From a virus, in IMG/VR virus record IMGVR_UViG_3300021378_000164, positions 1 to 23,889 of that record: a DNA stretch of 23,889 nucleotides, one strand, 5' to 3'. The position numbers and the translations under genes are program-made. Positions 3,001 through 23,889 of the stretch are shown here, one piece after another; the first letter of the stretch is position 1, and each line of letters opens with the position of its first letter. Under the pieces are notes generated by a model, which saw only the letters and a list, made by a program, of their open reading frames with translations, did no database searches and was not told where the DNA came from.

Positions 3001-6000
3001 AGAAAACATTCTTGCTGTTTTCCCTACTTTATTTCCTTTTAACATACTTGCAGCTAATGCAGCATCAGCCCCAGTTGATACTGCTGAAGACACTCCTTGT
3101 CCTGCTGCCTTTAATCCAGAGCTTACAGCTAAAGCTGTTAGTGCTGCACCAAATTTTTTCAATGCATCACCAATAATCTTAACTCTAAGTATTGCATCAA
3201 ACGCAGACAGAGCGGCGCTGGCAATAAAGAATTTATTGGCGATATCCCCTATTGGTCCAGGCAAGAACGACATAGCCATAGTTAGTCCATCAAGAGCATA
3301 TAGGGTTGATCTAAATCCACCAAGACCTTTTTTCTTTTGTGATGTTTCAAGAGCTGTTGCCTCTGCATTATTAATATGAGCATTTGCATCAATGTTTGAG
3401 GCAATAGTGTCTTTTTCATTTGCAATGGCTGCCATGGCTGCTGAATCAGCTAGCTCATCCATCTGAGAGGTTGCTCCAGAAATTGATGGTCCGCCTGGTT
3501 CTCCTGGTCCTCCAATGAGCACTGCCCCCCTAGAAACACTTGGAGGCAGAATGGTCTCCTCCATTCCTTGATTTATTCCTTGACCAATCCAGTTGCCAAG
3601 TTGATATGACCAAGGTGGTGGGGAAGCAGCGTTTGCATTTGATAAAACTTCTCTCTCAATATTAGATCCAGGGTTTCCCTCATCTATTCCTTCATTTATT
3701 GCTGCTGCTATCCTTATTCCTGATTCCCGATATTGCCTACTATCCAAAGTTTCAGTAAAACCTTCTCCTGCTGGAGCACTTTCTCTAACCCCTCCCACTG
3801 CTGTTACGGCTGTGGCTTGATATCCAGTTCTTGCTATAGTTCCAAGTCTTGTTTTGACATTTGCCCCTGCGCTAAGACCTCCAGCGGCTAATGAAAGCTC
3901 TTCATCTAATCTTGCAATAGATACATAAACCTTTTCTGCCTCAGCAGTAATTGGATGAATCTCTCTTGCCAATTTATCAATTTCTTCTTCCACCTGAGTC
4001 TGAGAAAGACCAGTTTCTTTCATAATTCTTTCAACATCTTCTGCGGCAAGAGTTATACCCTTTACTCTGTTAAGATAGTTGTTCATTGCTCCAAGGTCTG
4101 GAGTAAGATTGGCTAGGTCTGTCCAATCTCTATCTACTCTTTCTCCAGCATCATTTATTACCTGAAGATGAGATGCCTGAGTATTTGTTAGATTTCTCAT
4201 CTTTTCGCTATCTTGAGCAATTTCAGGCCAAACGGAAGCGACTTGGCTTTGGATTGCCTCAATCTCTGCTTGCTTGGTCGTCCATTGCATATCTGATCTT
4301 TCGCCTTGACGTATAATACTTGTGGGAGCCCCAGTCTTCTGTTGAGATGTAGCAAGAGAAGATATTTCGGGTATTCCACTAACTACTTCATCAATTCTTA
4401 CAGCTGTCACTTCAACATCATCGGTCATACTCTCTAGCACTCTGACAAATCTTTCCAGAGCACTAGTACCCATTTCTGATGCAGCTTGCAACCTTCTTTG
4501 AATTGCTTCTTGAACCTTTTGTGTATTACGATCTGGCAAGTTTAGATTTACCGACCCACCTCCAGGAATGGGGATGTTTCTCCCCTTTGCGTATCCAGCA
4601 ATATTTCCATTATTCATGGCCTCTAAAATTGGACCATATTTTTCGGATGCATCTTTATTAATTACAAATTCTCCAGGCATTAACAGTGCTGGCTCTGAAT
4701 CACTATTTCCACTACCGCCTACTTTTCCTCCAGTAGCCATCTTTCTTGGCACTCTTCCTAGCATAAGCCCCTGTGGTGATGATGCTCCTGCCGATGCCAT
4801 AGATCGTCCATATCTATTATAAGCTTCTGCTAAGGCATCAATTGCTTCTCTATTTACAAGAGCACTTCTTGTTAATCCAGAAATCTTTTCATCAATGGTT
4901 GAGGCTGCTGCAGAAGCTTCAAGTTCTGCTTGAGTTAAGAATCCAAAAGACTGTTCCATGGGTCCAGTAGATCCAACAATCTTTCCTACCATTCTTTGAT
5001 AGGTTCCTCGTATTAAGTCAAATCCCTTTATCATATTTCCAAGACCGTTAGCTATTAGACCAATTCCCATAAGGAAGACTGGGGCTACCCCAGCAAGCAA
5101 CGCAATTACGGCTGTTATGGCAACTTGTATTCCATTTGGCATTGAATTAAACACTTCTAAAACTTTTGTTGCTGCATCAACAATTGGTGTCAAAACCTTT
5201 AAGAAGATTTCTCCAATTGGAGCTATTGCAATCTTTAATCTTTCTACCGCCCCTTGAAATCTAACCCCAACTGCATCAGAAACTGCTCCAAGTTCTTTGT
5301 CTGATAATGCAGCAAGTTGAGAAACATCTTGACCCATAAGCTCAAGAACTCTTGAAGCTTGAGAGCCATCCTTTACGATGTTTTCAAATAATGCACCCAT
5401 ACGAGCAAACTGGAATTTACCAAAAACCTGAGCAAGGGTTTGCTGACGACTTAAATCATCAAGAGAATTAATAGCAAGAGCAAACGCTTGGACTGTTCCC
5501 ATCAAGTCTCCGCGATTTGCATTTACAATTGTATCTATGTTTATGCCAACAGCCTCTAATTGTTCTTTTGCCTGCTTTGTTGGATTAATTAATGATGCGA
5601 GACCAGACTTTAGTGCGTTAGCACCCTCAGCAGCATTGACCCCATTTTCTCTCATTGCAGCAAGGAATGCCGAAAGATCTTTTACGTCTCCACCAAGACC
5701 CTTAATGACTGTAGCCGCTCTTGGAATAGATTGGGTAATGTCATCAAGAGAAACAACGGTTTGGTTTTCTACTGCGTTCAAGAAGTCAATAGATCCTGCT
5801 AAATCGGTTGCACTTAACCCAAAGGCAGACTGCAGAGCGATTGTTGCATCTAAAGCTTGCTGTTGATCAATCTGACCAAGTGTTGCCAACCTTGTTGCTT
5901 CTGTGGTTGCTGCAAGCAGATCTGCACCCTGAGCACCTGTTGCCGCTGCCTTGGCTGCCATCTCCATTGTCTGTGAAGCAGAAATACCATACTTGGTAAA

Positions 6001-7504: not shown

Positions 7505-7513
7505 ATTATAGCA
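7505..7513 (-). promoter_or_regulatory. Extended -10 promoter TGCTATAAT for the tail chaperone genes
   Basis: TGCTATAAT reads towards the chaperone gene and lies directly after the hairpin that follows the major tail protein gene. The predicted start near 7498 gives a leader of about 26 bases containing the GAAAGGA Shine-Dalgarno. No clear -35 hexamer is visible, which is common for extended -10 promoters. Confidence 0.55.
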
Positions 7514-11333: not shown

Positions 11334-11342
11334 ATTATAACA
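11334..11342 (-). promoter_or_regulatory. Extended -10 promoter TGTTATAAT, leaderless start at 11327
   Basis: TATAAT occupies 11334-11339, with TGT before it. Six bases (TAGAGA) separate it from the ATG, so the usual start seven bases downstream is the A of ATG itself. It lies directly downstream of the hairpin behind the capsid gene. Confidence 0.6.
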
Positions 11343-11404: not shown

Positions 11405-12535
11405 TTAGGATGTTGCACCTGAAACATCTGCGTAAGCAACTGCGTCAAGCTCTTCCCATGTGATGCCCAGACGGACGAATACTGTGTATTCAATTGTGTC
11501 CTTCTTAGCTTGGTATTGGCGATTGACTGTGATATCGCGCTGGAAACCCCATACACGGTTCTGTGGGAATGTAAGATCTACATAATCCGCAGGATAGTAA
11601 GGAACTTCCATGACATCGATACCAAGAACACGGGTGGTGCGAGCACCTCCGAATGTCTGTCCAGCGCCACCGAGGTAGGCATTGGTGTACTGATCTGTAC
11701 CACGCAAAGCAGGAGCAACAGCTTCTGCAATAGCGTCAGCAAGTGTTCCATTGTTGGCAACGATACCAGCAAAGGCATCTGTACCTGCATAGAACTTAAG
11801 ACCACTCTTTACAGCGCGGTACTTACGTGGCATTGCATAAATGATTTGCTGCATTACCTCTGGTGTCCAATCGTTTCCAGAAACAGAAACAACTGCCTGA
11901 TGTGCATCAGATCCACCTGTAACTTGGTTGACGAAACCATTCCAAATTCCTAGGAATGGATCGGCACCACCATCACCGTTAATAGCCAAGTCTTCGATAT
12001 CGTTACCGAAAGCGCTGGTCATAAGACGGACAAGGTGATCTTCAAGGGCACCTCCTTCAATATTATCCTCAAGGGACTCTGTTGAAACCTCCCAGTCAAG
12101 ACGGATCTTCTTTGTTGTAAGCTCCACCTTTGTGAAAGTAGCGCCAGCGTTTGTGTAAGCACCATCTGCCTGTGCTGCTGCACGGATAACACGCTCTCCA
12201 ACGTTGACCTTTTCGATCTCCATTGTGTTTGCACGCATTGTTACCTTGCGTCCATCATTAGCAAGAACTGTTGCATCCCAAACGTAATCGATAAAACGAG
12301 TAGCTTGTTCTGGATTCAGGATACCTCCAGCAACTCCTGATGGATTTACTGCATTTGCTCCTGTTAGATCTCCGTAGTTAGCGCTTGGAATGTTTCCAAT
12401 TACGCCAGCTCCTGGATCTGTTACGCCGCCAATGTTGCCAGCTGCAACGGCTCCTTGACCTTGGTATAGACCTGGTGCTGGATCTCCGTATTCGCCAGAC
12501 TCACTTGGCTGATTCTTTAAAATTTCTTCTGACAT
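11405..12535 (-). CDS. Major capsid protein (HK97 fold)
   Basis: A 376-aa shell protein encoded after the prohead protease. Typical HK97-fold features are the N-arm after residue 75 (EQATRFIDYVWDATVLANDG), the E-loop/spine region with AAAQADGAYTNAGATFTKVE and KKIRLDWEVSTESLEDNI, and the A-domain end with VWGFQRDITVNRQYQ and VFVRLGITWEELDAVAYAD. The first 75 residues are glycine- and proline-rich and do not form the long helical delta domain of HK97 gp5, which fits a separate scaffold. I chose the ATG at 12535 (MSEEILKNQ) because GGAGGTG at 12545-12551 lies nine bases before it. A longer frame from 12610 overlaps the protease gene and places that ribosome site inside the coding region. GC content and smooth codon use fit high expression. 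Confidence 0.93.
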   Translation of the reverse strand: MSEEILKNQPSESGEYGDPAPGLYQGQGAVAAGNIGGVTDPGAGVIGNIPSANYGDLTGANAVNPSGVAGGILNPEQATRFIDYVWDATVLANDGRKVTMRANTMEIEKVNVGERVIRAAAQADGAYTNAGATFTKVELTTKKIRLDWEVSTESLEDNIEGGALEDHLVRLMTSAFGNDIEDLAINGDGGADPFLGIWNGFVNQVTGGSDAHQAVVSVSGNDWTPEVMQQIIYAMPRKYRAVKSGLKFYAGTDAFAGIVANNGTLADAIAEAVAPALRGTDQYTNAYLGGAGQTFGGARTTRVLGIDVMEVPYYPADYVDLTFPQNRVWGFQRDITVNRQYQAKKDTIEYTVFVRLGITWEELDAVAYADVSGATS

Positions 12536-12567: not shown

Positions 12568-13161
12568 TTATGCGAATAGGTCGGACTTTGTGAGGAAACG
12601 TCCACCCCATAGTGCTTTTTGCTGAGCCTTTTCGAAAATTGGCTCCTGTACGATCTCTCCGAGATCGCCAGACTTACGGAAAGCAGTATCCTTTTCCACT
12701 GCATCTACACGCTTTCCAAACTCATTCTTCACTGAATCAACATCATGCTTAACACCTGTAACTGTCTTGTTGAGTTCGTCTACCTTCTCATTAAGAGCCT
12801 TAATGGTGTCAGCAAGCATGGTGAATGTTGACTGAACCTCTTCAACTAGAGCCTTGGCTACTTCATTTTCCTCAGCCTTCATTGACTTTTCCTCCATGAC
12901 TTCCTCTTCTTCCATGGACTTTTCAGCCATCTCTTCTTCATCGTCTTCTTCTTCAGTTGAAATCTCAACTTCTACAGCCTTTTCGACTTCTTCATCAGAC
13001 ATCTTAGCCTCTGATTCAGACTTCTCAACTTCTGGCTCTTCAGACTTCTCAACTTCTGTTTCGGATTTTTCCATTTCAACTTCTACAGCCTTCTCTACAG
13101 TTTCTGTAACAATTTCTGCTACATCTTCTGTTGGGGCCATTTCTGTATTTTCATTTTCCAT
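12568..13161 (-). CDS. Nested in-frame capsid scaffold protein
   Basis: An internal start in the frame of the prohead protease. Codon 246 of the protease is ATG (13161), preceded by a near-perfect AAAGGAGGT at 13169-13177 with eight bases between GGAGG and ATG. This would give a 197-aa protein identical to the protease C-terminus. It has an extremely acidic N-terminal half with repeats of the EVEKSE type, then a coiled coil (residues about 118-155, LADTIKALNEKVDELNKTV) and a short basic tail. Small, acidic, coiled-coil proteins are typical scaffolds. The arrangement copies lambda C/Nu3, where protease and scaffold share one frame. The capsid protein lacks an obvious delta domain, so a separate scaffold is needed. 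The ribosome site is visible in the sequence; the role is inferred. Confidence 0.78.
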   Translation of the reverse strand: MENENTEMAPTEDVAEIVTETVEKAVEVEMEKSETEVEKSEEPEVEKSESEAKMSDEEVEKAVEVEISTEEEDDEEEMAEKSMEEEEVMEEKSMKAEENEVAKALVEEVQSTFTMLADTIKALNEKVDELNKTVTGVKHDVDSVKNEFGKRVDAVEKDTAFRKSGDLGEIVQEPIFEKAQQKALWGGRFLTKSDLFA

Positions 13162-13896
13162 CTTGCTTACCTCCTTTGCGTCATTTTTGATAGTAGAAAG
13201 AATAGACTTTACTACCTCTGCCTTTTGAGCATCATTAGTCTCAACGAAACCAATGTTGTTCATACCTTTGTCGCACCTTGGGCAATCGGATGTACCATCA
13301 GATGATAACTGAACAATGTCGTCATCGTTGCACCAAAATACGTTTTCAATTAGGGCCTTAGAAAGATACCCTCCAGTATGACCCTTTTCAATGCTGATGA
13401 CATTGGCGTATTGATTTGCAGGGTTGTCTACTAAAGATAGTTCAAAAAGATCATAGTCTTTAATGATTCTAATAGACTTATTCATGTTTTCGTCAAAAGT
13501 ATCCTCGTAATCTTTTACGCTACCACCAATTGAAAAGCCTGTTAATGTGCCATCAAGAACCTTTTCCCATGTATCCTGAGCACCTTTACTTACATATGTA
13601 GAAACATAGACTCCTTTATACAATTTTCCAGTTTCTTGATCATAAAATGAATCTTCTTTGAATGAGACTAATTTGCCAACAGCTTTTTTATCATCGTGCA
13701 TCTCTCTTATGTTTCCACGAAATTGCTCAAAAGCCTTTACGCTAGCTTCTGATGGAACAATGTCCCCTTGACGATCAACATTATCTAGAGTAGCGAATCC
13801 AGAAACGATTCTTCTCTCTATATCAACCTTTGCAATTGGCATTGAAAGTCTTAGGCTATTTCCCTCAGATTCCCAATGTACTTTAGAAATTTCCAT
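12568..13896 (-). CDS. Prohead maturation protease fused to scaffold (HK97 U35 / XkdF-like)
   Basis: A 442-aa protein in three parts. Residues 1-170 form an HK97-type serine protease: GFATLDNVDRQGDIV, the catalytic histidine at H67 (EMHDD), the serine at S122 (GTLTGFSIGG) and the closing motif FELSLVDNPAN (151-161). Residues 186-215 hold a small cysteine cluster (C189, C205, C208; CPRC), possibly a zinc ribbon. Residues 246-442 are the acidic coiled-coil scaffold that also has its own start. The protease cleaves the scaffold and capsid N-termini during maturation. The start at 13896 has AGGAG four bases away, but a TGGTATAAT box lies so near that a transcript from it would lack this site. The gene ends 32 bases before the capsid ATG. 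Confidence 0.9.
   Translation of the reverse strand: MEISKVHWESEGNSLRLSMPIAKVDIERRIVSGFATLDNVDRQGDIVPSEASVKAFEQFRGNIREMHDDKKAVGKLVSFKEDSFYDQETGKLYKGVYVSTYVSKGAQDTWEKVLDGTLTGFSIGGSVKDYEDTFDENMNKSIRIIKDYDLFELSLVDNPANQYANVISIEKGHTGGYLSKALIENVFWCNDDDIVQLSSDGTSDCPRCDKGMNNIGFVETNDAQKAEVVKSILSTIKNDAKEVSKMENENTEMAPTEDVAEIVTETVEKAVEVEMEKSETEVEKSEEPEVEKSESEAKMSDEEVEKAVEVEISTEEEDDEEEMAEKSMEEEEVMEEKSMKAEENEVAKALVEEVQSTFTMLADTIKALNEKVDELNKTVTGVKHDVDSVKNEFGKRVDAVEKDTAFRKSGDLGEIVQEPIFEKAQQKALWGGRFLTKSDLFA
13169..13177 (-). promoter_or_regulatory. Internal Shine-Dalgarno AAAGGAGGT for the scaffold
   Basis: One of the best ribosome binding sites in the window, lying inside the protease coding region (codons for AKEV) and correctly spaced before the in-frame ATG at 13161. 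It is the main evidence for the nested scaffold gene. Confidence 0.8.
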
Positions 13897-13905
13897 ATTA
13901 CTCCT

Positions 13906-13914
13906 ATTATACCA
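13906..13914 (-). promoter_or_regulatory. Extended -10 promoter TGGTATAAT before the protease gene
   Basis: TGGTATAAT in the 35-base gap between portal and protease genes. Nine bases separate TATAAT from the ATG, so the mRNA would begin about three bases before the start codon. TTGATAAAAA stands just upstream, as it does before the box at 22877. Confidence 0.55.
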
Positions 13915-13931: not shown

Positions 13932-15560
13932 TTACTGTGTTGATCTACCCTCGCCTTGAGGGTTTCTTCCAGTAGTTGTGGCAACGCTATCTGATGCATT
14001 ATTCATTCTTTCTGCATCTCTCTCTCTGTTTCCTGCCAAGTTTGCACGAGCATCTGTTTCTTGTCTTGTAGTCATTTCAAATACCTCATTTCCACCTGGC
14101 CTTTGTGCCATGCCAAGCTGCTCCCTTGCCTCGTTTGGAGTGATAACTTGAGTCTTAAGGTATCTTTCAAGAATTTGTGATTGAGCAACTTCATCTGTTA
14201 AGGTTAGTTCATTGAACTTTAAGTTAACAAGATCTGTTTTTGTTTTTACTACCTTGTTTACCATTTTTTCAATATATCTTTGTGCTGGACGAGTTACCTG
14301 CTCTTTGAATGTGCGGTCTTGTGCCATAGCAGCAGCAAGACCTCCAGCATCAACTCCGCCAAGCTTTGAAAGAGGGACTTGGTGAGCCATTAAGATGTCA
14401 TCACGATTCTTTTGATGATAATCATTAAATGATGCTTCTTGTACATTTGCTTCAATTGGCATCATCTGAAAGTCAATGGCATTCCCCTGCTGATCTGCAG
14501 GAAGTGGAACGTAAAGAGTTCTATGATTTTGTCCCTTTAACCCAGTTTGTAGAAATCTAAATAGTCTATCTTCTGATTCATGGTCAAGTCTTGCACCCTT
14601 AACAACAACAATGTATCTTGGCACAGCCTTATTCTCAAAGTAATCAATATTAAACTGTGATGCCAACTGATCTCCCTTAAGAGACAAGTAGGCAGAAAGG
14701 ATATCTGGAACACCATAAAATGTGTTAAGTGGTGAATAGGCTTTAAAATGAATAACTTCATTTGGACGCGGATCGTCTGTAATTGGATTTTGATTGGTTG
14801 CACCAAAATTGCGGAAATACACTACCTTGCCAGCAATAATTTGTGTGAACCCATCACGAATCCTGCGTACCCGCATTGTTGTAGATGGAATATGACCTAA
14901 ATATCCTATGTCTCCAGCAACAGTTCTGCCGACTTCTAGGTATCCATTTCCTGTTGACTCAAGATCAAGGAGTACCTTCTCCATTGTTGTGGTAAAACTA
15001 TCGTCATCGTTTAAGCTTTCAATCCACTCCATTGCTTCGCCCTTTAATCTATCTAGGCGACGGCGAGCTTTTTGAGCAGCAGTTTCGCTTTCCATAGATT
15101 CAAGTCTAAGTACAACATCTTTAGCTGTTTCAAACTTATATCCAAGACCAACGGTATTTGACACCTTTGCATCAATTGCTGCGTGGTTTGCAAAATTTGT
15201 ATCATAAAAGTTTGCAAGCTCATATAGGTTATATGGTGGAGTGATAACATCAAAAAGACCATATCCATTTCTAAATATTTCTCCTGGATTCATTTGCTTT
15301 GATTGAACACCATCAATACCTGTAGACCTTGTTCCTGCAGCCACAGCGTATGGACCAGTGGCCCTTCCATCACGATCTACAGGAATGTTGACGGACTTCT
15401 CCATCTTGTTTTCTGTTCTGCTGGTTCTTCTTTTAAAGTTTGTATTTAATCCATTGAAGTCTTTAATCTCTTCCCAAGATTTATTAAAGGGATCTTTTGC
15501 TAAAAATTCATCCTCTATCTGAATGTCATCAGAATACTTTATTACGATATCATCTTTCAT
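13932..15560 (-). CDS. Portal protein
   Basis: A 542-aa protein matching the SPP1/PBSX-type phage portal family. It has a variable N-terminus (1-85), the wing region (PPYNLYELANFYDTNFANHA), a stem and clip region (EVIHFKAYSPLNTFYGVPDI), the crown-side helices after SQFNIDYFENKAVPRYIVVV, and the C-terminal segment HQVPLSKLGGVDAGGLAAAM with VITPNEAREQLGMAQRPGGN, all characteristic. Twelve copies form the channel at one capsid vertex for DNA packaging and exit, and they nucleate head assembly. The ATG shares one base with the stop of the preceding gene (TAATG), so the two are coupled. AGGA lies four to five bases upstream. The terminase that would work with it is not in the window. Confidence 0.93.
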   Translation of the reverse strand: MKDDIVIKYSDDIQIEDEFLAKDPFNKSWEEIKDFNGLNTNFKRRTSRTENKMEKSVNIPVDRDGRATGPYAVAAGTRSTGIDGVQSKQMNPGEIFRNGYGLFDVITPPYNLYELANFYDTNFANHAAIDAKVSNTVGLGYKFETAKDVVLRLESMESETAAQKARRRLDRLKGEAMEWIESLNDDDSFTTTMEKVLLDLESTGNGYLEVGRTVAGDIGYLGHIPSTTMRVRRIRDGFTQIIAGKVVYFRNFGATNQNPITDDPRPNEVIHFKAYSPLNTFYGVPDILSAYLSLKGDQLASQFNIDYFENKAVPRYIVVVKGARLDHESEDRLFRFLQTGLKGQNHRTLYVPLPADQQGNAIDFQMMPIEANVQEASFNDYHQKNRDDILMAHQVPLSKLGGVDAGGLAAAMAQDRTFKEQVTRPAQRYIEKMVNKVVKTKTDLVNLKFNELTLTDEVAQSQILERYLKTQVITPNEAREQLGMAQRPGGNEVFEMTTRQETDARANLAGNRERDAERMNNASDSVATTTGRNPQGEGRSTQ

Positions 15561-15934: not shown

Positions 15935-15943
15935 ATTATAGCA
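15935..15943 (-). promoter_or_regulatory. Extended -10 promoter TGCTATAAT, leaderless start at 15928
   Basis: TATAAT occupies 15935-15940, with TGC before it, partly just past the stop codon of the LamG gene. Six bases (CTAACC) separate it from the ATG, which places the transcription start on the A of ATG. This box would drive the head module (small protein, portal and onward). Confidence 0.6.
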
Positions 15944-19632: not shown

Positions 19633-19641
19633 ATTATAGCA
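19633..19641 (-). promoter_or_regulatory. Extended -10 promoter TGCTATAAT for the LamG gene
   Basis: TGCTATAAT lies at the foot of the hairpin behind the reductase gene and 18 bases before the ATG of the LamG gene. A start near 19626 would give a leader of about 12 bases that begins at the GGAG of the Shine-Dalgarno. Confidence 0.55.
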
Positions 19642-19685: not shown

Positions 19686-21629
19686 TTACGCAGAAACTAG
19701 ATCAACAACATCACAAGCGCCTGCAGTACATGCCAACTCTTGTGTTCCAGAAGTGGTATCCTCTAGTTCGTAAAGTGGAAGTGATTGCCAAGGAATATTT
19801 TCTGGCATTGACTTCAAAAGTTTTTCATACTCTTCTTTTGTTATTTCTTGATAAGGTGCCTGCTTATATGAATGCTCAGAAAGTGGTAGGAATGAAACCC
19901 CACCAATTGAGTCAAAATTTTTGAATACCCAAGCTCCTACATCAAGCCATTCATCCTCTGCAACATTAATTGTTACGGATGGATTGTGCTCTGTCCAGTG
20001 TGTTCGATAAGTTTTCCAAATCTCAAGATGGTCAATTGCTGACATATCCTTAGTTACAGTGGCACCCCTTGGGGCCTTAATTGGAAAATAAAACACAGTA
20101 GTCATGTCAGGCTTCATTACGTCAGGCTCGTTTGGAACACCAAAGTCCTTAAGGAATGCTGTTAGTGGATCTTTGTTATCTGCACGAACAGATCTAATGT
20201 AATATTCTGAATACCATGGATGGATTCCACTAGATACCCCAGTAAGCTGAGAGACAGTTCCAGAAGGCTTTACAGTGGTGATAGCGGTAGAATGATTGAT
20301 TCCCAATTTATCTGCCTCAACTGCATTCTCTCCAACAGCAATTTCTCTTAAGCTATCAAGCAGGCTTGGAAGATTCTTATGAAGTGTTCCAGTCAACTTA
20401 TTTCCAAAAATTCCTGTTAGAGATACGCCAAGCAATCTTTCTTCTTCTGTATTTGACTGCCATGTCTTACGAATATATTTAAATGTGCTTAGTGTTGATT
20501 GCCATGTGCCCAATATAGTTGCAAGACGAACCTTTTCTGAAAGAGTTTCGGCTGTATCTTCTGCATCAATAACGACTTCTGTCAAATTACAGAATTGGTT
20601 TGCACGGAGAAGAATTTCTCCACATGGATTAGTTCCAGCAACCTTTCCTGATTCCCTTCGACCAAATTTGTCAATGTGCTTACGAACAGCATCTAGATTA
20701 TAGATTCCTCTTTCTCCTGACTTTGATTCGTATAGATTTCTCCATTCACGCAGGAACTGAGCAGTATTTGGCTTTGAATTATATACCGCTGAATTATTGG
20801 CAAGAGCACGCTGACCCTCCTGCTCCCACCATTGTCCACTCTTTGCCTTTGCCATCTCAAAATCGTCAAGATTAGATAGGGAGATTAAGGCTGAACGTCG
20901 AACTCCTCCAACGACAACAACTTCACCAATCTTACACATAAGATCATGAGCTTCAATTGGCTTAAGTCTGCGACCCTTTGCAATCTTAAATTGCTCAACA
21001 GTAAACTTAAATAGGTCGTTTAATGGATCTGGACCTGATGCCCTTCCTCCGAAAGTCTTTAATCGTGCTCCTGCTGGACGAACCTTTGACATATCCCACT
21101 CGGGAATCTGACCAGTAACAAGAAGTCCAATGAGTTCTTTAAATGACTTAGCCCAGCCCAACTTTGAATCCTCAACAACTATTGTTGTATTTGTTGGGAA
21201 AAGTTCTTCTGCAATTACTGGAAGACTGTCTACATACTTTTGCTCAACAGAGAATCCAACCCCAGTACCATTCATCAGAATATACATGGCCTCATCAAAG
21301 GATCTAAGGCTGTCTACGGCAATAAAAGAACAATTGTATGCCGCGATGTGGTCTCTTTCTAAAGCTGGCCCTGCGGTCATCATGGCACGCATAGATGGCA
21401 TAACCTTGTGATGAATAATTGCTTCTCTTACTTCTGTAAACGTAATATCTTTGTCATCATACTTATAATTCTTTACAAGGTGATTTCTCATGAAGTCCAT
21501 GTATCGATCTACAGTCTCTACCCATGTTTCCCTCCTACCCTTTTCCTCAAGCCATCTTGAGTACCTTGAAACATGAATAAAATTTCTGTATGGATCTGAT
21601 ATTGATCCATTTTCGTCAATGAACGACAT
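19686..21629 (-). CDS. nrdJ: Adenosylcobalamin-dependent ribonucleoside-triphosphate reductase (class II, monomeric)
   Basis: Reduces ribonucleoside triphosphates to dNTPs in the cytoplasm with a radical made from coenzyme B12. The 647-aa protein has all the catalytic parts of the Lactobacillus leichmannii RTPR type. C100 (AAYNCSF) and C347 (NQFCNL) are the redox cysteine pair. The active-site motif GTNPCGEI gives N334, thiyl C336 and E338. KPSGTVSQLTGVSSGIHPWY (454-473) is the conserved phosphate-binding and barrel region. C634 and C639 near the end (ELACTAGACD) are the relay cysteines. No ATP-cone is evident; the length is somewhat below the 739 aa of the L. leichmannii enzyme and similar to phage forms. 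The ATG at 21629 has GAAAGGGTG five bases away. It has its own promoter and 3' hairpin and lies among virion genes. The host must supply B12 cofactor. Confidence 0.95.
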   Translation of the reverse strand: MSFIDENGSISDPYRNFIHVSRYSRWLEEKGRRETWVETVDRYMDFMRNHLVKNYKYDDKDITFTEVREAIIHHKVMPSMRAMMTAGPALERDHIAAYNCSFIAVDSLRSFDEAMYILMNGTGVGFSVEQKYVDSLPVIAEELFPTNTTIVVEDSKLGWAKSFKELIGLLVTGQIPEWDMSKVRPAGARLKTFGGRASGPDPLNDLFKFTVEQFKIAKGRRLKPIEAHDLMCKIGEVVVVGGVRRSALISLSNLDDFEMAKAKSGQWWEQEGQRALANNSAVYNSKPNTAQFLREWRNLYESKSGERGIYNLDAVRKHIDKFGRRESGKVAGTNPCGEILLRANQFCNLTEVVIDAEDTAETLSEKVRLATILGTWQSTLSTFKYIRKTWQSNTEEERLLGVSLTGIFGNKLTGTLHKNLPSLLDSLREIAVGENAVEADKLGINHSTAITTVKPSGTVSQLTGVSSGIHPWYSEYYIRSVRADNKDPLTAFLKDFGVPNEPDVMKPDMTTVFYFPIKAPRGATVTKDMSAIDHLEIWKTYRTHWTEHNPSVTINVAEDEWLDVGAWVFKNFDSIGGVSFLPLSEHSYKQAPYQEITKEEYEKLLKSMPENIPWQSLPLYELEDTTSGTQELACTAGACDVVDLVSA

Positions 21630-21780: not shown

Positions 21781-22710
21781 CTATGCCACCCTATATGCTA
21801 TGACGACTATTCCAGAAGATCCAGACCCGCCTGGCCCACCACTTTGATTTGAACTACCTCCGCCGCCTCCGCCGCCGCTGCCTCGGTTTACAGTTGCGCT
21901 TTGTCCACCTACGTTACCAATAGCTCCATTTCCTCCTCCAGAAGATCCAGATCCTGCAACTGGTCCAGAAGTTTGAACCTCTGACCCTCCTCCTCCTCCG
22001 CCTGCTCGGGCTAAGGCACTACCCGTAATGCTTGATGTAGTACCAGTTCCACCATTTCCTCCACGGTTTCCCGAAGTAGCACTATATCCTATAAGAGAAG
22101 ATCCCCCACCTCCACCGCCAGCATCGACAACGCCAAGACCTCCATTAAATCCTTGACCAACCACTCCAACGCCTCTTGCGCCTGCGCTTTGGAACCCATC
22201 TCCTGCTGCGCCACCACCAGAGCCACCATTTGCACCACTTCTATTACTAAAGCCACCTCCACCACCACCACCAGTGGAAACCACTAAAGAACCTATCGAA
22301 GAGTTTACTCCATTTGCTCCCCTTTGACCGCTACTAGTTCCATTAGAACCTCCGCCTCCGCCACCACCGATAGTTACCGTATAGCTCGCCTGACCCATGT
22401 AGGTCTCATCTTCAAGATATCCTCCTGCTCCTCCTCCTGCGCCTCGGAATCCACCACCACCTCCGCCGCCTGCAACAACTAAAGTGCTAAAAGGAAATAC
22501 TCCAGTTGACTGGGTTACTACAAAAGTTCCTGATGAGGTAAAGGTGTGTACTTTCCAAGTTTCTCCAGTACCATTATAATTTGCTATGGTTGCAGTTGTT
22601 CCACCAGATGCTGCATTATAAGCAGCCCAAGTATTAACCCCACCCTTTACCGTTTTTGTAACTTGCTGAGACCCTATTCTAATATTGTTAGAATTATTCC
22701 AAATTGTCAT
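21781..22710 (-). CDS. Glycine-rich tail adhesin-like protein
   Basis: A 309-aa protein. Residues 1-75 form a non-repetitive N-terminus ending in the motif WKVHTFTSSGTFVVTQ, which in many phage and marine bacterial proteins introduces a glycine-rich domain. Residues about 76-300 are arrays of poly-glycine runs (six to eight G) separated by short polar segments, and the end is SGIVVIAYRVA, a conserved closing strand. Such domains are known in phage adhesins, for example the polyglycine-II sandwich of gp38 of T-even-like phage S16, where the loops contact the host receptor. A role at the fibre tip is inferred. The start follows the stop of the 48-aa gene by two bases (TAATAATG) with no separate Shine-Dalgarno, so translation is coupled. 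It ends like the partial protein at the window edge, which suggests a paralogous pair. Confidence 0.78.
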   Translation of the reverse strand: MTIWNNSNNIRIGSQQVTKTVKGGVNTWAAYNAASGGTTATIANYNGTGETWKVHTFTSSGTFVVTQSTGVFPFSTLVVAGGGGGGGFRGAGGGAGGYLEDETYMGQASYTVTIGGGGGGGSNGTSSGQRGANGVNSSIGSLVVSTGGGGGGGFSNRSGANGGSGGGAAGDGFQSAGARGVGVVGQGFNGGLGVVDAGGGGGGSSLIGYSATSGNRGGNGGTGTTSSITGSALARAGGGGGGSEVQTSGPVAGSGSSGGGNGAIGNVGGQSATVNRGSGGGGGGGSSNQSGGPGGSGSSGIVVIAYRVA

Positions 22711-22876: not shown

Positions 22877-22885
22877 ATTATACCA
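22877..22885 (-). promoter_or_regulatory. Extended -10 promoter TGGTATAAT before the 48-aa gene
   Basis: TGGTATAAT in the 32-base gap between the 120-aa gene and the 48-aa gene. A start near 22870 leaves a leader of about 11 bases containing most of the GGGAGGAG site. TTGATAAAAA lies just upstream, the same arrangement as at 13906-13914. Confidence 0.5.
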
Positions 22886-23283: not shown

Positions 23284-23889
23284 TTAGTTAGTCCTCACTC
23301 GCACGATCACGATTCCTGAACCACCAGCAGCGCCGTTGCCAGCATTTTGTCTAGCGCCGCCTCCGCCACCAGTATTTGCTGTCCCAGCAACAGGGCTAGT
23401 AGTACTAGCAGCGCCGCCGCCGCCTGTGCCGCCGTCGCCCTGAGTGCTGGAACCAGAACCACCACCGCCACCAGCACGGGTTACAGAACTATTTGTGATG
23501 GAACTTGCTTTGCCAGCACCACCATCTCCGCCATCGACAGATGTGGCATTCTGACCAGCAGCACCAGCGCCGCCGCCGCCGCCGCCAGCGTTACCAGCAG
23601 CAGTACCTCCAGCGTTACCAAGACCTATCGTTGCAGCGCCGTCGCCACCGCCGCCCGACCCGCCAGCACCCGCGAGCCCAAGCCAGCCCTTGCCTCCTCC
23701 ACCACCTGGAGAAATAGCATAAAGACCGATAACAGAGGAGGCTCCGTTGTACCCCAAAGGCTGATAGGTGTAGTTAGTTGAGCCTGAGCCACCCGCACCA
23801 ACTACAACAGTATGCGCTCCAGTTGGTAAATAAATTGATGATTCAAGGTGTCCTCCACCGCCACCACCGCCAGCAGAGAAGTTGTTTCT
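23284..23889 (-). CDS. Glycine-rich tail adhesin-like protein, 5' part beyond window
   Basis: The frame is open from the stop at 23284 to the right edge, at least 201 codons, with the N-terminus missing. A TTG at 23757 is not the start, because the frame continues upstream with NNFSAGGGGGGGHLESSIYL and TGAHTVVVGAGGSGS. The protein is made of poly-glycine runs with A, S, T and D between them and ends in GGSGIVIVRVRTN, like the closing strand of the 309-aa protein. The DNA is far richer in G+C than the rest of the window because of the glycine and alanine codons. A receptor-binding fibre role is inferred from the domain type and from its neighbours. Confidence 0.8.
   Translation of the reverse strand, partial: RNNFSAGGGGGGGHLESSIYLPTGAHTVVVGAGGSGSTNYTYQPLGYNGASSVIGLYAISPGGGGGKGWLGLAGAGGSGGGGDGAATIGLGNAGGTAAGNAGGGGGGAGAAGQNATSVDGGDGGAGKASSITNSSVTRAGGGGGSGSSTQGDGGTGGGGAASTTSPVAGTANTGGGGGARQNAGNGAAGGSGIVIVRVRTN

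Follow-up and report, generated by a model that had tools for sequence, protein, structure and literature searches.

The window analyzed here, a 23.9-kb stretch of 23,889 nucleotides from an uncultivated virus record (IMG/VR; G+C, 39.6%), carries its late genes on the minus strand in the order portal, protease, and major capsid protein (Table 1). The protease open reading frame (ORF) is the only one between the portal and capsid genes. The capsid gene directly follows the protease gene in the window, as it does in the annotated Streptomyces phages that were fetched; in these phages, the gap between the portal and protease genes holds only a small membrane or hypothetical gene. On the same strand, a gene for a B12-dependent ribonucleotide reductase (19686-21629) adjoins the structural genes, and two genes (21781-22710 and 23284-23757) encode very glycine-rich proteins with long glycine runs, possibly tail or fibre parts.

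Table 1. Features of the portal-protease-capsid region and related sites, in window coordinates
Feature	Position	Strand	Description or basis
Portal protein	13932..15560	-	ORF and profile matches
Extended -10 box	13906..13914	-	TGGTATAAT, 9 nt before the protease ATG; this ATG lacks a well-spaced Shine-Dalgarno sequence
Protease ORF	12568..13896	-	Full-length head maturation protease/scaffold, 442 aa; Pfam and phrog matches
Protease domain	13402..13896	-	Residues 1-165; H67, S122, and D157 invariant in both family alignments
Cys-bearing beta module	13240..13350	-	Residues 183-219 (C189, C205, C208)
Internal Shine-Dalgarno sequence	13169..13177	-	AAAGGAGGT; invariant in the window's lineage
Internal start codon	13159..13161	-	ATG, codon 246 of the protease ORF; ATG or GTG in every homologue
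Putative nested scaffold CDS	12568..13161	-	197 aa, predicted 22.3 kDa, pI 4.2
Acidic disordered linker	12877..13161	-	Residues 246-340; 41 acidic, 9 basic
Long helix	12670..12876	-	Residues 341-409; hydrophobic periodicity peak at 3.5 residues (coiled coil)
Conserved C-terminal tail	12571..12669	-	Ends in WGGRFLTKSDLFA
Major capsid protein	11405..12535	-	HK97 fold, 376 aa, without a delta domain
TGNTATAAT sites	7505-7513, 11334-11342, 13906-13914, 15935-15943, 19633-19641, 22877-22885	-	

Judged by its profile matches, the protease is of the Peptidase S78/XkdF type, as evidenced by PF04586 (Peptidase_S78; 33.3 bits against a cut-off of 21), PF14550 (Peptidase_S78_2; 32 bits against a cut-off of 24), phrog_9427 (E = 8.6e-125), and viral structure matches to prohead proteases. 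The invariant residues H67, S122, and D157 are the putative catalytic residues. An AlphaFold model built on 51 homologues had a mean pLDDT of 63.6, and only its outline was used: a folded protease (residues 1 to 165), a beta module (183 to 219), a helix (225 to 239), disorder (240 to 340), a second helix (341 to 409), and a loose tail. In this model, the folded part ends at residue 239, which places codon 246, the internal start discussed below, at a predicted domain boundary. A PDB fold search with the protease model gave no significant match. To call the Cys module a zinc ribbon would be a guess; in one group of homologues (L155-L232, e.g., L155 and L161, with an ELSIVD motif), two of its three cysteines are lost and the internal start is kept.

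The sequence-only reading had pointed to an ATG behind a strong Shine-Dalgarno (SD) sequence at codon 246, and this proved exact: AAAGGAGGT stands before the codon with a GGAGG-to-ATG spacing of 8 nt, and the ORF that opens there spans 197 of the 442 amino acids. No other perfect AAAGGAGGT exists in the window, where one-mismatch matches number 13 versus 7.7 +/- 2.9 by chance; taken by itself, an SD motif only modestly above chance in the window would be weak evidence. The signal at codon 246 is nonrandom because the SD sequence is combined with an in-frame start codon. As a control, 393 other long ORFs of related loci (86,815 codons, with 2,999 in-frame ATG, GTG, or TTG codons) yielded three internal starts with an SD match of at least 8 nt, and all three (in L051, L054, and L137) lie in members of the protease family that the filter had missed. 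The stretch from -25 to +20 around the internal start in the window has a minimum free energy of 0.0 kcal/mol, a value that puts it in the bottom 1.5% of the gene's positions for structure.

Homologues were drawn from viral contigs, one genome collection, and annotated Streptomyces phages. Because the peptide patterns used in the large profile scans came from the protease domain and the Cys module, the loci were not selected for their start signal. All 186 distinct homologues that are complete from the protease motif through the stop codon have an in-frame ATG or GTG behind an SD sequence, which is at least 7 nt long in 182; the loss of the internal ATG or SD sequence among homologues, which the sequence-only reading had named as an observation that would count against it, was thus looked for and did not occur. 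A chance motif is rejected by this conservation together with the 393-ORF control. In a set of 159 distinct complete proteins, the internal start has an SD match of at least 6 nt in every case, versus 0 of 1,625 other in-frame starts of the same genes with a match of at least 7 nt, and the nested product would be 159 to 297 residues long (median, 181). These counts include close relatives, the 159 proteins forming 60 clusters at 90%, 22 at 80%, 11 at 70%, and 3 at 60% protease-domain identity.

The spacing between the SD sequence and the start codon is almost always 7 to 10 nt across homologues, and in the window's lineage AAAGGAGGTAAGCAA[G/A]ATG is kept at every locus that reaches this point. 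Three loci deserve separate mention: L386 has an SD match of only 5 nt, in AGGGAGGG; L027 has a long GGAGG-to-ATG spacing of 13 nt; and in L097 two internal sites tie, of which the QEENNM site (AGGAGG, 8 nt) is likely the right one. Most of the gene is more structured than the initiation region (median percentile of the latter, 0.15; Wilcoxon p ~3e-27, computed on sequences that are related rather than independent). With the nested part as query, tblastn gave matches in 127 Streptomyces phage records, and in every match listed that part lies inside a gene annotated as a capsid (head) maturation protease; the tail is encoded in 579 of 600 sampled viral-contig stretches. The family belongs to tailed phages, and these 127 records of cultured Streptomyces phages are among its members. 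Homologues L143-L146 (Chloroflexi, Ktedonobacterales, and one labelled Proteobacteria) share a similar protease domain and were left out of the counts because their tails are unrelated and GC-rich.

Across the family, the SD context occurs in two codon phases, KEx...ATG (83 members) and EGG/GGA...GTG or ATG (76 members), and it is therefore the nucleotides rather than the residues that are conserved. The codons AAG GAG GTA AGC (encoding KEVS) are invariant in 23 sequences whose conserved columns average 39% synonymous difference; from codon usage, the chance of this codon set in one sequence is ~0.0085. In the EGG and GGA groups, the valine at the start position is always encoded by GTG, yet GTG makes up 3 to 10% of their valine codons, and in one lineage the start is GTG in 38 members and ATG in 8. 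In loci L024, L054, L069, L077, L107, and L115, an insertion of additional residues separates the Cys module from the internal start, and these insert-bearing lineages still keep the start beside the tail.

Such patterns bear on what else might have produced the motif. It could simply reflect codon bias or the encoded peptide (Lys-Glu-Val or Glu-Gly-Gly), given that the peptide is likewise conserved within each lineage; this seems scarcely credible when the same nucleotides arise from different peptides and codon phases between lineages and the KEVS codons stay fixed where synonymous sites elsewhere change, and peptide constraint as the cause was rejected on the strength of the two phases. Its position exactly at the domain boundary would also suit a site of ribosome pausing that assists folding of the protease domain ahead of tail synthesis, the ATG being incidental. 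Pausing, however, would need neither a start codon nor a stretch of low structure, whereas every homologue has a start codon, almost always at 7 to 10 nt, including the rare GTG and the swaps between GTG and ATG, and we regard this explanation as very improbable. Equally improbable is the proposal that translation gives the full-length protein alone, which then frees the scaffold by cleaving itself, as described for P2 gpO: a protease that carries a scaffold-like tail could act on itself, and might do so alongside internal initiation, but self-cleavage leaves the conserved SD sequence and start unexplained. Initiation at codon 246, as read from the conserved start signal, is in our judgment very likely.

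What the internal start would yield resembles a scaffold in composition and shape. As the sequence-only reading had described for the part downstream of codon 246, the nested product is acidic and contains a coiled coil, with 61 acidic versus 24 basic residues, a pI of 4.2, and a hydrophobic repeat of 3.5 residues. A C-terminal KSxD...W-x-G-x-FL segment (the WGGxFL tail) is common to lineages whose linkers do not align, and this C-terminal tail is a candidate coat-binding segment. A PDB sequence search with the tail returned generic coiled coils only, and comparison with Nu3, Mu Z, and annotated scaffolds revealed no sequence similarity. No stand-alone scaffold gene was found in relatives by a tail-profile scan, the matches being only the ends of protease ORFs, contigs truncated on their 5' side, or two ORFs with an upstream interruption (L351 and L380/L064). 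In the last of these (L064 and L380 are the same contig), an in-frame stop lies within the protease domain, and the scaffold part with its start is undamaged; the stop is either a sequencing error or a genuine loss. Separately, residues 405 to 409 (AFRKS; 12670-12684) show synonymous variation of 0.07 versus 0.39, as low as in the region of the internal start.

The capsid protein offers no obvious scaffold of its own. Across 22 capsid proteins, a stretch of only ~22 to 74 residues precedes the conserved fold, ~22 in the Streptomyces-phage relatives and up to ~74, rich in Gly and Ala, in the window's lineage, and the earlier view that the capsid protein has no obvious delta domain stands. Scaffolding of the HK97 type would need an N-terminal capsid domain of roughly 100 residues or longer, and no stretch of that length is present. 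The HK97 capsid protein has a delta domain of 102 residues (PMC8508860), and the cited examples of phages that keep the scaffold within the capsid protein are HK97 and T5 (PMC3185693). In 8ho3 and 8zvi, 458-residue capsid proteins with a longer N-terminal part, it is the fold region to which the capsid profile aligns (E, 0.01 to 0.02). An AlphaFold model of the capsid protein (pLDDT, 46) was too poor for use.

With initiation at codon 246 granted, the nested product is quite likely a scaffold, a reading that draws on its position, its shape, and the absence of another candidate. The internal start could instead be real and its short product something other than a classical scaffold: a minor head protein, for instance, or a protein that regulates or partners the protease. 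This alternative has a small though appreciable chance, since known scaffolds show no detectable similarity to the tail, whose function is read only from its position and shape. Against it, the tail is acidic, disordered, and coiled coil in character, it lies immediately upstream of the gene for a capsid protein that lacks a delta domain, and the interval from portal to capsid gene yielded no further candidate for a scaffold. Scaffold function could, in principle, also come from the full-length protein alone or from a gene beyond the 23.9-kb window.

The start of the full-length protease, on which the sequence-only reading was silent, is of a different kind. Among 152 genes, none has an SD match of at least 5 nt at a workable spacing before the full-length start. 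In the KE lineage, TATAAT lies 4 to 11 nt before the protease ATG in 73 of 76 genes, mostly at 9 or 10 nt, versus 1.3% at control ATGs, and the extended form TGN-TATAAT occurs in 57 genes in all. The box is rarer in the EGG lineages (13 of 76), for which coupling to the upstream gene is an alternative route to protease translation. A TATAAT-like signal ~10 bp before the start is taken to indicate leaderless genes, which are common in Actinobacteria (PMC3160421); one relative, L142, lies within an Actinomycetota MAG contig. A spacing of 9 nt would give a leader of ~3 nt, and "near-leaderless" is thus the safer word. That the protease is made from a near-leaderless mRNA has at best an even chance. 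Within the window, TGNTATAAT occurs six times versus 1.6 expected, always on the minus strand and ahead of genes; at two of these sites (before 11327 and 15928) the distance to an ATG is 6 nt, an arrangement seen in leaderless genes.

We propose that the protease gene is probably two genes in one frame, one for a 442-residue protease with a scaffold tail and one for a 197-residue scaffold. Ribosomes that start at the gene's own ATG would make the former, and those that start at codon 246, behind a near-consensus SD sequence, would make the scaffold alone. The protease would be translated poorly or from a near-leaderless mRNA, because its start has no well-spaced SD sequence and, in the window's lineage, mostly lies 9 to 10 nt behind a conserved TATAAT, and the scaffold start would be strong, the outcome being many scaffolds and few protease-scaffolds. 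Through their common tail (the coiled coil and the WGGxFL end), both products would co-assemble with the capsid protein, and the protease would thereby be carried into the procapsid, where it would later remove the scaffold. Internal initiation, the product ratio, scaffold function, and protease targeting are all features that we infer from gene anatomy and conservation. More tentatively, and with somewhat less than an even chance, the gene may work in two modes: the protease would come only from a near-leaderless mRNA whose promoter abuts its ATG, and the scaffold from the internal SD sequence on the same mRNA and on read-through mRNAs. The mode of initiation would then set the protease-to-scaffold ratio throughout a large phage lineage.

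Nested scaffold genes are already known from lambda and Mu; what differs here is the S78 protease, the unrelated tail, the Cys module, and the protease start without an SD sequence. The sequence-only reading had likened the locus to lambda C/Nu3 in a phage with an HK97-type protease, and the design is supported by the S78/XkdF match, the conserved start, and the acidic coiled-coil tail. In both systems, the scaffold is encoded in frame in the 3' part of the protease gene, the protease shares the scaffold tail, the gene adjoins the head genes, and the scaffold is acidic (annotated Nu3 has a pI of 4.5). However, lambda C is a Peptidase_S49 protein whose start has a clear SD sequence (AGGAGG), whereas the window protease is of the S78 type and its full-length start lacks a well-spaced one. 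Descent from a common C/Nu3 locus found no backing, given the two peptidase families and an hhalign probability of 0.1% between alignment A5 and Nu3, and comparisons likewise gave no support for a common origin of the tail and either Nu3 or Mu Z. Mu I/Z also has an in-frame internal scaffold start in its protease gene, with Z behind AGGAG at 8 nt, but the Z sequence is unrelated, and the window family is of the S78/XkdF type with a Cys module between protease and scaffold. A putative start at Val177, with ACGAGGA, is described for gene 27 of the Mu-like Pseudomonas phage PaMx73 (PMC4378225).

HK97 and T5 share with the window an HK97-type protease that adjoins an HK97-fold capsid protein, whereas their delta or scaffolding domain is on the capsid protein and the scaffold-like part here is on the protease. 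In herpesviruses, the scaffold is likewise encoded in frame in the 3' part of the protease gene (UL26/UL26.5), and the short form, UL26.5, has its own internal mRNA start rather than internal ribosome entry.

If this reading is right, it names the missing scaffold of a large phage lineage and extends the nested design, known from lambda (S49) and Mu, to phages with an S78 protease, an indication that this solution evolved more than once. No description or annotation of a nested gene in these phages was found in the open-licence literature, nor any proteomics that detects both products, and an earlier mention elsewhere is possible. Annotation that assigns one start per ORF overlooks nested genes of this kind. 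The nested-scaffold prediction can be tested in laboratory phages that are already in culture.

Inspection of lambda itself yielded one further observation. The annotated Nu3 start has no SD sequence, and an in-frame ATG ~210 nt downstream follows AGGAGG (lambda record 5309-5369; L387 1110-1170). The annotated Nu3 may be too long.
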